Below are positions 1,100-64,000 of a stretch of 64,000 nucleotides of DNA, piece by piece (position 1 is the stretch's first letter; each line of letters begins with the position of its first letter). The position numbers and the translations under genes were made by a program. Origin of the DNA: Sycon ciliatum (lineage: Eukaryota > Porifera > Calcarea > Leucosolenida > Sycettidae). The DNA is taken from NCBI RefSeq assembly GCF_964019385.1, contig NC_088643.1:76233614-76297613 (forward strand), written 5' to 3'. The notes beneath the pieces are model-generated. The model made no database searches. It saw only the letters and a list, made by a program, of their open reading frames with translations, and had not been told where the DNA came from.

Positions 1100-22815
<21,716 letters not shown>

Positions 22816-35930: not shown

Positions 35931-51316
<15,386 letters not shown>

Positions 51317-59950: not shown

Positions 59951-60145
59951 TTTTTAATTTTTTTTTATATATACTTGAAAAAGCACATAACCACCAGGAA
60001 AGCTGACAAAGAAAAAAGAGTAAGAAAAGACAGATAAAAAGAGAGCTGAGAGAGAGAGAGAGTTGGGGTACGGTTAGGGGAGGACTAGACATTGAATGGT
60101 GGTCGCCACAGTCACAGATAGTAGCAGTGCTGGTGAGGCTACAGG

Positions 60146-60485
60146 TGTAATGGGTAGCCGAGTGGTAGGCGCGGTGAAATCAACAAGAATTACTTTTATT
60201 CTACTTTCAGGTACACACCTGAGATGTAATTATTAGTGAAAGAAGAAGCGGCAAAATAAATAAGATTCAAGATCTCTCCGGTGCTCACCTAGAGGTTGAC
60301 TACTTCTTCGAGTTATCTTTCGTTGCTATCTAATCTAATCTTCTCTTCATCAAAACAGAAATGCTCAGCCGCTTTTATGCAGCAGACGCCGTACGCTTAC
60401 ATACGGAGATACACTAAATATACATCAGGCAAAGCTCCGTATTAGTTCCGTACTGCTTCCGTATTGGTCGGGCAGGAATACTACA
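60146..60485 (-). repeat. 3' LTR
   Basis: 340 bp, nearly identical to the 5' LTR. The one difference seen is GGAATACTACA here versus GGGATACTACA, which implies a recent insertion. Confidence 0.92.
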
Positions 60486-60967
60486 CCCTCCCTTCCTACA
60501 GGTAATCACGCCCTCGTGATTTTCAAAAAATTAGTGAAGAGTTACGAAAACAGCGTCAACCGGAAGATGGCAAATTATATCGGAAATGATAACGTTTAGA
60601 GTAGACAGAATAAATGAACTGATAACAAATCATAAAGTACAAGCACACCAGGTTCACACGATCTCACGGGGTCAAAAGGGGAAAGAACTGTCCTCCAAAT
60701 AGGACCTGAAAATCCACAGCACTCTTGCTGCACAACGCTGGCACAACCCGCCAGGAACATCGCAGTTCAAAAACCGAACTGAATACACTATAACTATAAA
60801 GGGCGTTGTCACACACATTGTCCCACGTTAGCTGGGTAAACCGTGGCTCACCATGATCAGACGCCTACCAAACTAAACTGGATTCACACACTCGCATAAA
60901 GGAAGACTGAAAAGAACAGGGAGACTGAAGGAAGAGAGGAAAGAAAATGCCATACCTAGAATCAGCG

Positions 60968-61525
60968 TTAGTAACCACGGCGGCGGCTGGAGCTACGGCG
61001 GAGGGCAAGCCAGGTTTTATCTTCATCTTGGTTGAGCCGGTCACTCAGAGCGGCTAGCTCGGCGTCAGACAAATAACCTCCCTCCTCGTCTTGAATCATG
61101 GTCTTCACATTGTCGATAGCATCGCTTTGCGCGACGTAAAGAGTGATGGTCTAGCCAGGAAGAGTGTTGACGAAAATCTGCATCCCACCACGGAGACGAA
61201 GTACCAAGTGAATAGTGGACTCCTGCTGAACGTTGTAGTCACTCAGGGTTCGGCCGTCTGCCAACTGCGTGCCGGCGAAAATCAAACGCTGCTGGTCTTG
61301 GGGAATACCCTCCTTGTCTTGGTCAGCAGCCTGCATGTCGTCGTCCTCATCAGCTTCGCCATCACCACCGGTAGTATACATGTAGGTAGCGGGTCGCTTG
61401 GAATCGCCATCGGAGTCTCCAGTGAGTGCCATGCGGAGGGAAGGGTGATCCACGCTAGCACCCTGACTGTGCTGCAAGCTAATAAGCAGGGCCAGGCCCA
61501 GGAAGGCAAGAAACATGATTCTCAT
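60968..61525 (-). pseudogene. Signal peptide plus permuted ubiquitin ORF, one internal stop
   Basis: The frame starts at ATG 61525 with [20 protein letters not shown], a strong signal peptide, then an acidic spacer. A ubiquitin segment follows that corresponds to residues 31-76 (QDKEGIP to LRLRGG). It runs straight on into residues 1-10 of a next ubiquitin (MQIF). A TAG at 61151 stands at the position of Lys11. Beyond it the same frame continues as ubiquitin to about residue 35 and then becomes a basic, Ser/Arg-rich tail ending with TAA at 60968. Chain-forming lysines are changed: Lys6 to Asn, Lys29 to Met, Lys48 to Thr, Lys63 to Gln. The Leu8, Ile44 and Val70 patch and the terminal Gly-Gly are kept. 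A 124-residue product ending at the TAG is also possible. Confidence 0.82.
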
Positions 61526-61601
61526 CTTGATTCGTCGCACGAAGCTGCGGGTTGAGCCATGGGGGTCTGGGGTCGAATCACGTTGTTTTATTTTACAAAA
61601 A

Positions 61602-61618
61602 CACACCGCTGCCACCAA
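61602..61618 (-). promoter_or_regulatory. Primer-binding site of the LTR element
   Basis: Directly inside the 5' LTR the - strand reads TTGGTGGCAGCGGTGTG. TGGTGGCAGCG pairs with the 3' end of initiator-Met-type tRNA except at one position. Confidence 0.65.
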
Positions 61619-61958
61619 TGTAATGGGTAGCCGAGTGGTAGGCGCGGTGAAATCAACAAGAATTACTTTTATTCTACTTTCAGGTACACACCTGAGATGT
61701 AATTATTAGTGAAAGAAGAAGCGGCAAAATAAATAAGATTCAAGATCTCTCCGGTGCTCACCTAGAGGTTGACTACTTCTTCGAGTTATCTTTCGTTGCT
61801 ATCTAATCTAATCTTCTCTTCATCAAAACAGAAATGCTCAGCCGCTTTTATGCAGCAGACGCCGTACGCTTACATACGGAGATACACTAAATATACATCA
61901 GGCAAAGCTCCGTATTAGTTCCGTACTGCTTCCGTATTGGTCGGGCAGGGATACTACA
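61619..61958 (-). repeat. 5' LTR
   Basis: 340 bp, TG...CA ends. The - strand carries a TATATTT motif (61889-61895) as possible promoter and AATAAA (61668-61673) as possible polyadenylation signal. Confidence 0.92.
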
Positions 61959-62194
61959 CAGGCACTCCACTGACCATTAGGTCTCAGTATCGCCATGCCG
62001 GTAACGCACCAAGAGACAAAAACGGAAGAAAATCTGAAGCGCAATACATGAATGTTAATTACAATATAGGTAATAGGGAGAGTGGTGACCAAGAGAGGAC
62101 AGTATAGACCGTTAGTATGGGGTGCTTCAATGCACATCCCCAAACCGAGAGGTGCGATCTGGAAAGAACAGTGAGACGATCAACATGATGGGCT
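61959..62194 (-). other. 3' UTR or flank of the second LINE
   Basis: Between the LTR element and the reverse transcriptase stop lies sequence without a gene. It is probably LINE 3' UTR, since the LTR insertion may have split it, but no tail is visible. Confidence 0.4.
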
Positions 62195-64000
62195 TCAAAG
62201 CACGTCCCAAGACCATGGCTGGTCTGAAATGTGTTTGTTGACACCTTTTTTAAAAGCTGTGAGTGGAGAGTGATTGGCCAGACGGGGAAAGACGTCCTCG
62301 GGGAGGCTGTTCCACCATTCAAGGAAACAGTACGGGAAGGAACGTCGAAGGTAATCAGGACTGGTGCCGGGGGTGGTGTTTAAGAGCTGTTCCCGGTGCT
62401 GGCGCTGAGCATAATGCTGCTGGCGGGTTCGAACAGTATCGGCCCGTGGTTTTGGGGGAGGGCGGATGCGTGTCAGACGGGGTGGGCCCTTGCAGTTAAC
62501 TACCTTGTAGAGATAGGACAGCCCTGCGACCGTCCGTCTGGCCCGCAGACTCTGGAGGACGGTGGTGGGTTCAATCATCTGCATGGCCTTGCGCTGTGCT
62601 GTGTCCAACTTCCCAAGGTGGGTCTGGGCAGCACCAAGCCAGGCTAGTGGGGCATACTCAAGTATGGGCCTTACAAAGCCCTTATAGACGGTTAGGCGTC
62701 CAGCAGCATCCAGGATGGGGGCTGCCTTCCGCATGAAATGGAGGCGTTGATGTGCGCGCACAGAAAGCTGGTGGAGGTGGGCGCTGAAGTTGAGCTTCTC
62801 GTCGAACACCACCCCAAGGAGCTTCAACTGGCTGCTGACAGGAACAGGGGTGCCAAGGAATTGGACAGGGGGGAAGTCTAGAGGGGCCAGCTTCCTGGTC
62901 ACGGACATCAGCTGTGACTTAGAGGGCTCAAAGGTAACCCTCCAAGTACTTCCCCAGGCTTCCAGCTGGTTTACGGCTGTCTGAAGTGCAGCTGCGGCGG
63001 CCTCTGTGGTCTGTCCAGGCATGACAGACGTGTATAACGTAGTATCATCAGCATACACGGCGATGGAGACGCTGGCAGGTAGCTGATCTTCGGCGTCGTT
63101 TATGTATACTAGAAACAATGTGGGCCCTAGGATGCTGCCCTGAGGGACGCCTGACCGGATGGTAGAGGGGGTAGAGGTCTGTCCCCCAACAACAGCTTGC
63201 AGCTTCCGGTTCTGGAGGTACGATGTTAACCAGGCCAGCAGTTGCCCACCAATGCCATAGCCTCGGAGCTTGCAGAGGAGCCCAGGGTGTGAAACCCGGT
63301 CAAACGCGCCTGCTATGTCTATGGCGAGGGCCTGAATGGTTCCGCCCTTACTGGTGGTTAAAGCCCATTCATGCTGGAGTGACGTTAGTAGGTCAGCTGT
63401 GCCGATTGATTTCCGAAAGCCAAACTGGTTGGCAGACAGGAGGGTATTGCTGTTGAGATGGTTGATGAGCTGCTGGTTGACTATTCTTTCCATCATCTTG
63501 GATACTACACAGAGCAAGGAGACTGGTCGATAATTACGGACATCGCCCTTGGCCTTGCGCTTGTGGATGGGAACCACATTGGCTACCTTCCAGGCTGTAG
63601 GCTGGTAACCATGGGAGAGACAAGACGAGAACAGCTGCGACAACGGCTTTGAGAGCTCAGACGCACACTCCTTTAGAACGCGGCAGGAAATGGAGTCTGG
63701 CCCGGACGCTTTGGATACTTCAAGACACCGGAGCTGCTTGAGCACTGCTGATTCCCGGAAACGGATTTGACTCAGGATGGCGTCAGTGCGTGGTGGGAAA
63801 GGCGGGAGTGTGTCTTCAGTGAGATCATTTGGGATGCTGCACTTCTCTGCGAAGAATGATGCGAAACAGTCAGCCTTGGAGGAGGCCGTGGTACATTGCT
63901 GACCATCGGCCCCCTTTAGGACAGGAATATCAGATGTGCGGGATAGACCTCCTGCACGCTTCATGTTTGACCACCATGCTTTGTCACGTAGGTTTCCATT
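62195..64000 (-). CDS. LINE reverse transcriptase (5' part beyond window)
   Basis: On the - strand the frame is open from the window edge to a stop at 62195, so at least 600 residues are present. Motifs seen are VRNYRPVSLL, ANQFGFRKSIGTADLL, AIDIAGAFDRVSHPGLL, SGVPQGSILGPTLFLVYIND and YADDTTLY. The C-terminal end has WWNSLPEDVF. Both catalytic aspartate sites are present. The endonuclease, if any, lies outside the window. It is a jockey/CR1-group-like LINE, distinct from the one at 42378. The LTR element lies about 240 bp beyond its stop. Confidence 0.9.
   Translation of the reverse strand, partial: NGNLRDKAWWSNMKRAGGLSRTSDIPVLKGADGQQCTTASSKADCFASFFAEKCSIPNDLTEDTLPPFPPRTDAILSQIRFRESAVLKQLRCLEVSKASGPDSISCRVLKECASELSKPLSQLFSSCLSHGYQPTAWKVANVVPIHKRKAKGDVRNYRPVSLLCVVSKMMERIVNQQLINHLNSNTLLSANQFGFRKSIGTADLLTSLQHEWALTTSKGGTIQALAIDIAGAFDRVSHPGLLCKLRGYGIGGQLLAWLTSYLQNRKLQAVVGGQTSTPSTIRSGVPQGSILGPTLFLVYINDAEDQLPASVSIAVYADDTTLYTSVMPGQTTEAAAAALQTAVNQLEAWGSTWRVTFEPSKSQLMSVTRKLAPLDFPPVQFLGTPVPVSSQLKLLGVVFDEKLNFSAHLHQLSVRAHQRLHFMRKAAPILDAAGRLTVYKGFVRPILEYAPLAWLGAAQTHLGKLDTAQRKAMQMIEPTTVLQSLRARRTVAGLSYLYKVVNCKGPPRLTRIRPPPKPRADTVRTRQQHYAQRQHREQLLNTTPGTSPDYLRRSFPYCFLEWWNSLPEDVFPRLANHSPLTAFKKGVNKHISDQPWSWDVL

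Follow-up and report, generated by a model that had tools for sequence, protein, structure and literature searches.

Transducing retroviruses of the v-onc type carry spliced cellular cDNA between their LTRs in place of viral genes, and TRIM-type elements are very short, limited in length and without coding capacity. Ubiquitin occurs in the secreted ubiquitin-extension proteins of cyst nematodes and in the v-ubi of baculoviruses, in both of which it is whole and unpermuted. The maize element Bs1 is present at low copy number and lacks a reverse transcriptase of its own. Two reports describe Bs1 as an LTR retroelement whose hybrid ORF contains exon-only pieces of three host genes (PMC13317346, PMC4717578).

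The locus described here lies in the 538-Mb genome of the sponge Sycon ciliatum, within a window of 64,000 nucleotides (C1:76233614-76297613) that is the whole stretch of DNA analyzed. The best explanation, with a probability of roughly 0.85, is a small, non-autonomous LTR retrotransposon in which cDNA of two cellular genes takes the place of gag-pol; it would have been reverse-transcribed with template switches and moved in trans, and its ubiquitin part would most likely be an inactive passenger.

Including its duplications, the LTR element occupies window positions 60142-61962 on the minus strand. A scripted flank check identified the target-site duplication CAGG on the left (60142-60145) and on the right (61959-61962). 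The 3′ LTR, with TG...CA ends (60146-60485, minus strand; left on the plus strand), and the 5′ LTR (61619-61958, minus strand; right on the plus strand) are each 340 bp long and identical at 339 of 340 positions, with one mismatch. A polypurine tract, GGAAGGGAGGG (60486-60496, minus strand), adjoins the 3′ LTR, and a primer-binding site (PBS), TGGTGGCAGCGGTG (61604-61617, minus strand), lies beside the 5′ LTR and is complementary to the 3′ end of a tRNA that we take to be tRNA-Leu. Both signals are on the minus strand, so that the ORF and the element share one orientation. The LTRs, the CAGG duplication, the PBS and the polypurine tract bear out the original prediction of a non-autonomous LTR element with intact ends, primer site and purine tract; the coordinates first assigned to it, 60968-61525, delimit the ORF but not the whole element.

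The element measures 1,813 bp, with 1,133 bp between the LTRs, and holds the captured ORF without gag-pol. Ten pieces scanned on both strands gave no Pfam match to gag, protease, reverse transcriptase or integrase. The small ORFs scanned in the 3′ non-coding internal region (60497-60967, minus strand) gave no Pfam match above the cut-off; from about 60552 upward, this region is common to copies with a second kind of LTR. Upstream of the ORF, ATGGCTCAACCC might be a candidate gag start, and the leader before 61547 displays no homology to the host gene beyond that of shuffled sequence. Elsewhere in the window, ORFs of 1,040 aa (42375-45497; RVT_1, E 1.6e-28, with an endonuclease domain) and 589 aa (62195-63964; RVT_1, E 6.6e-35) represent non-LTR elements, and tandem repeats of period 16 (11986-12452, 29 copies) and period 19 (21124-21569, 23.5 copies) are open in several frames.

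The ORF (61154-61525, minus strand, ATG at 61525) encodes 124 aa, comprising a putative signal peptide, read by eye from the hydrophobic start, an acidic stretch, ubiquitin residues 31-76 and ubiquitin residues 1-10. Residues 31-76 form the first part of the captured stretch (61184-61321, minus strand). The second part, residues 1-35 (61079-61183, minus strand), is interrupted at Lys11 by a TAG stop codon (61151-61153, minus strand) that ends the ORF, beyond which the frame runs on with residues 12-35 and a tail starting GYLSDAELAALSDRLNQDEDK (60968-61078, minus strand) to the next stop at 60968. The order predicted behind the signal peptide, residues 31-76 followed by 1-35, is exact, and the part before the TAG matches the Pfam ubiquitin family (PF00240, E 4e-16); the 60 aa after the TAG gave no Pfam match.

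Residue alignment verifies the replacements foreseen at Lys6 (N), Lys29 (M), Lys48 (T) and Lys63 (Q) in the window, where Lys11 (TAG) and the second-part Lys33 (E) are likewise replaced. Lys27 and the first-part Lys33 are kept, as are Gly-Gly and the Leu8, Ile44 and Val70 patch that had been expected to remain. The Gly-Gly is not C-terminal, as ten further residues follow it directly, and the 124-aa product, whose second part goes no further than residue 10, lacks a full 76-residue ubiquitin. The ubiquitin core should not form without residues 11-30. A single AlphaFold2 prediction for the 124-aa protein with 16 relatives had low confidence, its mean pLDDT of 48.9 being by itself weak evidence against a ubiquitin fold; block scores were 79 and 73 over the signal helix and below 50 in every later block.

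A protein search with ORF residues 1-68 gave 49 matches, comprising 48 ENA proteins and P0042, an NCBI protein of Sycon ciliatum; a search with P0042 gave 20, namely P0042 and 19 of the same ENA proteins. P0042, which is without ubiquitin, is matched at 100% by a three-exon host gene on the minus strand of C109 (13,353 bp), with exons at 4721-4784 (64 bp counted from the ATG), 2161-2205 (45 bp) and 1370-1567 (198 bp, with a donor after it). Its two introns have GT-AG ends and measure 2,515 and 593 bp; neither is present in the element. On the minus strand of the window, exon 1 is matched at 61460-61547 (85% over 88 bases, covering the signal peptide and 22 bases upstream of the ATG), and exon 3 at 61311-61421 (its first part, 78% over 111 columns) and 61013-61090 (82% over 78 bases). 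Exon 2, too short for a separate DNA match, has its counterpart by position at 61422-61459 (minus strand), joined without an intron. In the secretory part, exons 1-3 of this gene for a secreted acidic protein are copied without introns. C109 ends before any further host exon appears, and since the last host exon is off C109, the tail of the element below 61013 has no known source.

After its signal peptide, the known host product consists of 40% Asp and Glu. Two papers report Asp-rich proteins secreted by Sycon in spicule-forming cells (PMC5390275, PMC12419799). The NCBI name of P0042, ‘TFIID subunit 7-like, partial’, looks like a low-complexity misannotation, Pfam giving nothing above the cut-off. 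Positions 37-229 of C109, read as reverse complement, are 79% identical to the 3′ non-coding part of the element, in the opposite orientation.

One repeat length of sponge polyubiquitin sits inside the exon-3 part. Polyubiquitin genes are located at C1:3161275-3162414, with five repeats matched, and at C4:35376249-35377616, with six. The element’s 243 bases align gap-free over a repeat junction, with 209/242 identical to C1 and 186/243 to C4, in agreement with the proposed capture of a host polyubiquitin segment across such a junction. The prediction had named two kinds of host gene to look for, a parent polyubiquitin gene and a related signal-peptide gene; the former is thus present on both C1 and C4 and the latter is the three-exon gene on C109. 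DNA identity to the C1 gene is 86%, with 17 codons differing silently and 15 with an amino-acid change, including one to TAG; Asp24 and Thr28 are common to the element and Sycon ubiquitin. Short words common to the host exon and ubiquitin, chosen by eye, lie at the entry (CAAGAC) and the exit (AGGAGGGT), both at ubiquitin codons 31-35. As entry and exit fall at the same place of successive repeats, the permutation arises without rearranging ubiquitin itself.

An autonomous partner that went unseen would have supplied the reverse transcriptase for both messages, which were probably joined when that enzyme switched templates at short words common to the two. Element RNA may then have been packaged in trans, primed by what we presume is tRNA-Leu, and integrated by the partner’s proteins. 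Translation of the ORF would give a secreted, acidic 124-aa protein that has only part of a ubiquitin at its end; this protein most likely lacks ubiquitin activity and is carried along as a passenger. No autonomous partner was seen in the ten solo or partial-LTR loci looked through (L009, L016-L021, L023, L024 and L026). In one of them, L018 (PBS at 2631, sense orientation), the LTR is followed by 47 bases, TGGTGGCAGCGGTGGGATTCGAACCCACGCCTCCGGAGAGACTGGAG, whose sequence reads as complementary to the 3′ half of a tRNA and presumably fits tRNA-Leu(AAG). These bases would represent primer copied beyond the usual stop, which would support tRNA priming, and joints of this type are apparently integrated by-products of tRNA-primed synthesis. 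An LTR joined to a stretch resembling the complement of a tRNA 3′ half, as in L018, is also seen in L016 and in the 5′ flank of copy L027a.

The best 40 of 1,412 candidates were scored in an LTR search of the genome, and the best 150 of 1,387 in a host-protein search; the latter placed the host gene at the top and yielded at least 149 further matches beside it. We read 57 copies, of which 17 were found by LTR, the window included, and 40 came from the upper part of the 150 protein matches. Of the 40 LTR matches 38 lie in the regions covered, and the ten solo LTRs or pieces named above, three of which (L016, L019 and L023) contain gene pieces, stand outside the 57. Two kinds of LTR are represented: 41 copies carry the window kind and 16 have no match to the window LTR. 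The second kind has the form TGTA(G/A)CGT...CGCTACA in the four of these 16 copies inspected, with the same PBS word in 15/16 and identical 4-bp flanks in 6/10 that could be checked. Copies of the second kind group together in a copy tree that was used for that grouping only, as it is poor, with a misaligned host row and long branches (e.g. L053, L057, L014, L072, L070 and L086) that probably reflect bad mapping. On C226 (469938-474569), four matches 1,465 bp apart, one of which (L066) was read, likely form a tandem LTR-internal array of the element.

Both LTR ends were located by motif in 31 of the 57 copies, and 24 of these 31 have identical 4-bp flanks; seven do not, and the other 26 copies are without both LTR ends by motif. 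Among the 31, the LTRs are mismatch-free in seven and at most 1% different in 19 (gaps not counted); young insertions are numerous. All 57 copies contain the ubiquitin stretch: it is complete in 38 (type A, including all 16 with the second LTR kind) and lacks 32 to 42 internal columns in 19 (type B), exactly 32 bases in 16 of them and 33, 39 and 42 columns in the other three. What the copies show is therefore not an absence of ubiquitin accompanied by random decay in the window. Since types A and B both include young copies, with near-identical LTRs in several of type B, loss of intact ubiquitin did not stop the spread.

Codon 125 is TAG in 55/57 copies, TAT in two and lysine in none. The stop at Lys11 in the window ORF might in itself suggest an ordinary decaying insertion, with the likeness to ubiquitin due to chance or local decay. 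This reading has practically no probability, chance likeness or one-off decay being ruled out by the PF00240 match at E 4e-16, the ubiquitin stretch in 57/57 copies, the TAG in 55/57 and the 86% identity to C1.

A further reading, that the secreted, lysine-poor ubiquitin protein serves the element or the host, for example by acting on ubiquitin receptors or hydrolases, is in our judgment quite improbable. It is consistent with the lysine loss and with the 124-codon frame, kept in 26 of the 38 undeleted copies, 25 with the first ATG, in a set partly chosen by ORF. One of the 57 copies, L069 (C9:4426114-4428514), has an uninterrupted 185-aa frame together with mismatch-free LTRs and a 4-bp duplication; the uninterrupted 174-aa frame of L003 (type B) passes ubiquitin in another phase. 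The signal peptide offers further support, with an N:S of 18:18 where a ratio of 2.31 was expected (p 0.01) over all branches of the 17 LTR-found copies, though as one of five regions tested. Its N:S on the internal branches of all 57 copies is 4:10 (p 0.0007), a result favored by the choice of 40 of the 57 for their likeness to P0042. In subsets chosen by ORF, the signal peptide gave 7:6 (p 0.20, 16 copies with the second LTR kind) and 7:19 (p < 0.001, 21 copies, four badly mapped ones dropped). It is the only region that stands out in both the full and the LTR-found sets and, judging from these counts, may be under constraint.

The remainder of the frame speaks against such use. Residues 85-124 of the ORF have an N:S of 21:11 (expected ratio 2.84, p 0.19) in the LTR-found set of 17 and 31:9, without constraint, on the internal branches of the 57. 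The other regions gave 31:10 (residues 23-68), 2:2 (69-84) and 25:12 (after the TAG) on those internal branches, and 55:15 (p 0.75), 10:6 (p 0.10) and 43:20 (p 0.16), respectively, in the LTR-found copies. For residues 1-84 on internal branches of the 57 copies, N:S was 37:22, a ratio to expectation of 0.61 (p 0.045), compared with 0.69 and 1.13 in shifted frames; a first count with 14 copies and the window had given 13:10 for shared changes in these residues. The 19 type B copies, having spread without 32 to 42 ubiquitin columns, and the low-confidence structure model also count against a product in use. The ubiquitin part thus shows no clear constraint among copies, either on the internal branches of the 57 or in the 17 LTR-found copies, so that the expectation of an ORF kept under selection may hold for the signal peptide, which stands out, but is not supported for the ubiquitin part. 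Together with the TAG at Lys11 and the pLDDT of 48.9, this speaks against a permuted ubiquitin, as originally predicted, being encoded today. Most copies would at best produce a secreted protein with an incomplete ubiquitin; judged from their sequences, nearly all copies read have lost the full coding frame for a secreted permuted ubiquitin.

Comparison with the parents gives dN/dS values of 0.17/0.52 against the host gene (93 codons) and 0.09/0.42 against C1 polyubiquitin (80 codons), whose interpretation is difficult, as they also reflect host constraint and gene conversion in polyubiquitin. These values are low for a free passenger and, with lysine codons changed beyond expectation before the copies spread, would suit a host retrogene that came first: the secreted-protein and polyubiquitin messages would have fused into a functional host gene that was retained, and the whole fusion would later have been taken up by an LTR element. 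We regard this order of events as unlikely, given that host-side constraint and gene conversion distort both ratios. No LTR-less copy was recognized among the 57 read, a weak argument in that 26 are without both LTR ends by motif and only best-scored matches were used.

In the window, 6/8 lysine codons of the parent stretch are changed, compared with an amino-acid change in 15/81 codons overall; this excess (P 0.0003, hypergeometric; 0.0011 or 0.0007 with codons weighted by mutability) was tested post hoc, the original prediction having pointed to the lysines. Among copies with readable codons, Lys48 is Thr in 55/56, Lys63 is Gln in 47/53, Lys6 is Asn in 49/57 and the second-part Lys33 is Glu in 54/57; the Lys29 position is T in 42 of the 57 copies and M in the remaining 15, and Lys27 and the first Lys33 are kept in 55/57 and 56/57. 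Being common to nearly all copies, the lysine replacements predate the spread. It is conceivable, if very improbable, that before the spread selection acted on a functional secreted protein made of the signal peptide and a full permuted ubiquitin that had lost most of its lysines but retained Lys27; a few copies might still make it, and the element or the sponge would have used it against ubiquitin handling along the secretory route. Lys27 is buried in ubiquitin.

With the locus thus read as a non-autonomous retrotransposon carrying cDNA of two cellular genes, its value lies in part in both donor genes still being in the genome. The making of a chimeric gene can be followed joint by joint in an early-branching animal: an intron-less message came in, ubiquitin entered at one short shared word and ended at another, and the frame was kept. 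Two unlike kinds of LTR carry the captured gene, and its copy number is high, situations that, to our knowledge, are known mainly from plants. The element family allows a direct test of whether captured cargo is ever selected. No title or opening abstract describing this element was found in the literature, which is no proof of its absence from print.

Like v-onc-type transducing retroviruses, the Sycon element carries spliced cellular cDNA between its LTRs; in contrast to them, it has no env or sign of infection, and its family has spread within one genome. It resembles TRIM-type elements such as PbTRIM of the red harvester ant in being short, with LTRs, PBS and polypurine tract, without gag-pol and thought to be moved in trans, but at about 1.8 kb it bears a cargo of two cellular genes. 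As with the cyst nematode ubiquitin-extension proteins and v-ubi, ubiquitin is found here in an unusual context, secreted or viral, although the Sycon ubiquitin is permuted and incomplete. Like Bs1 as described in its sources, the Sycon element has intron-less host exons between LTRs and more than one host gene in one ORF. In comparison with that description of Bs1, it belongs to an animal, combines a secretory protein with ubiquitin, has at least 149 matches and places the same cargo on two unlike LTR kinds. For this sponge, Bs1-like transduction of two genes by a small LTR element is well documented, and the resulting element has multiplied and its cargo occurs with both LTR kinds.
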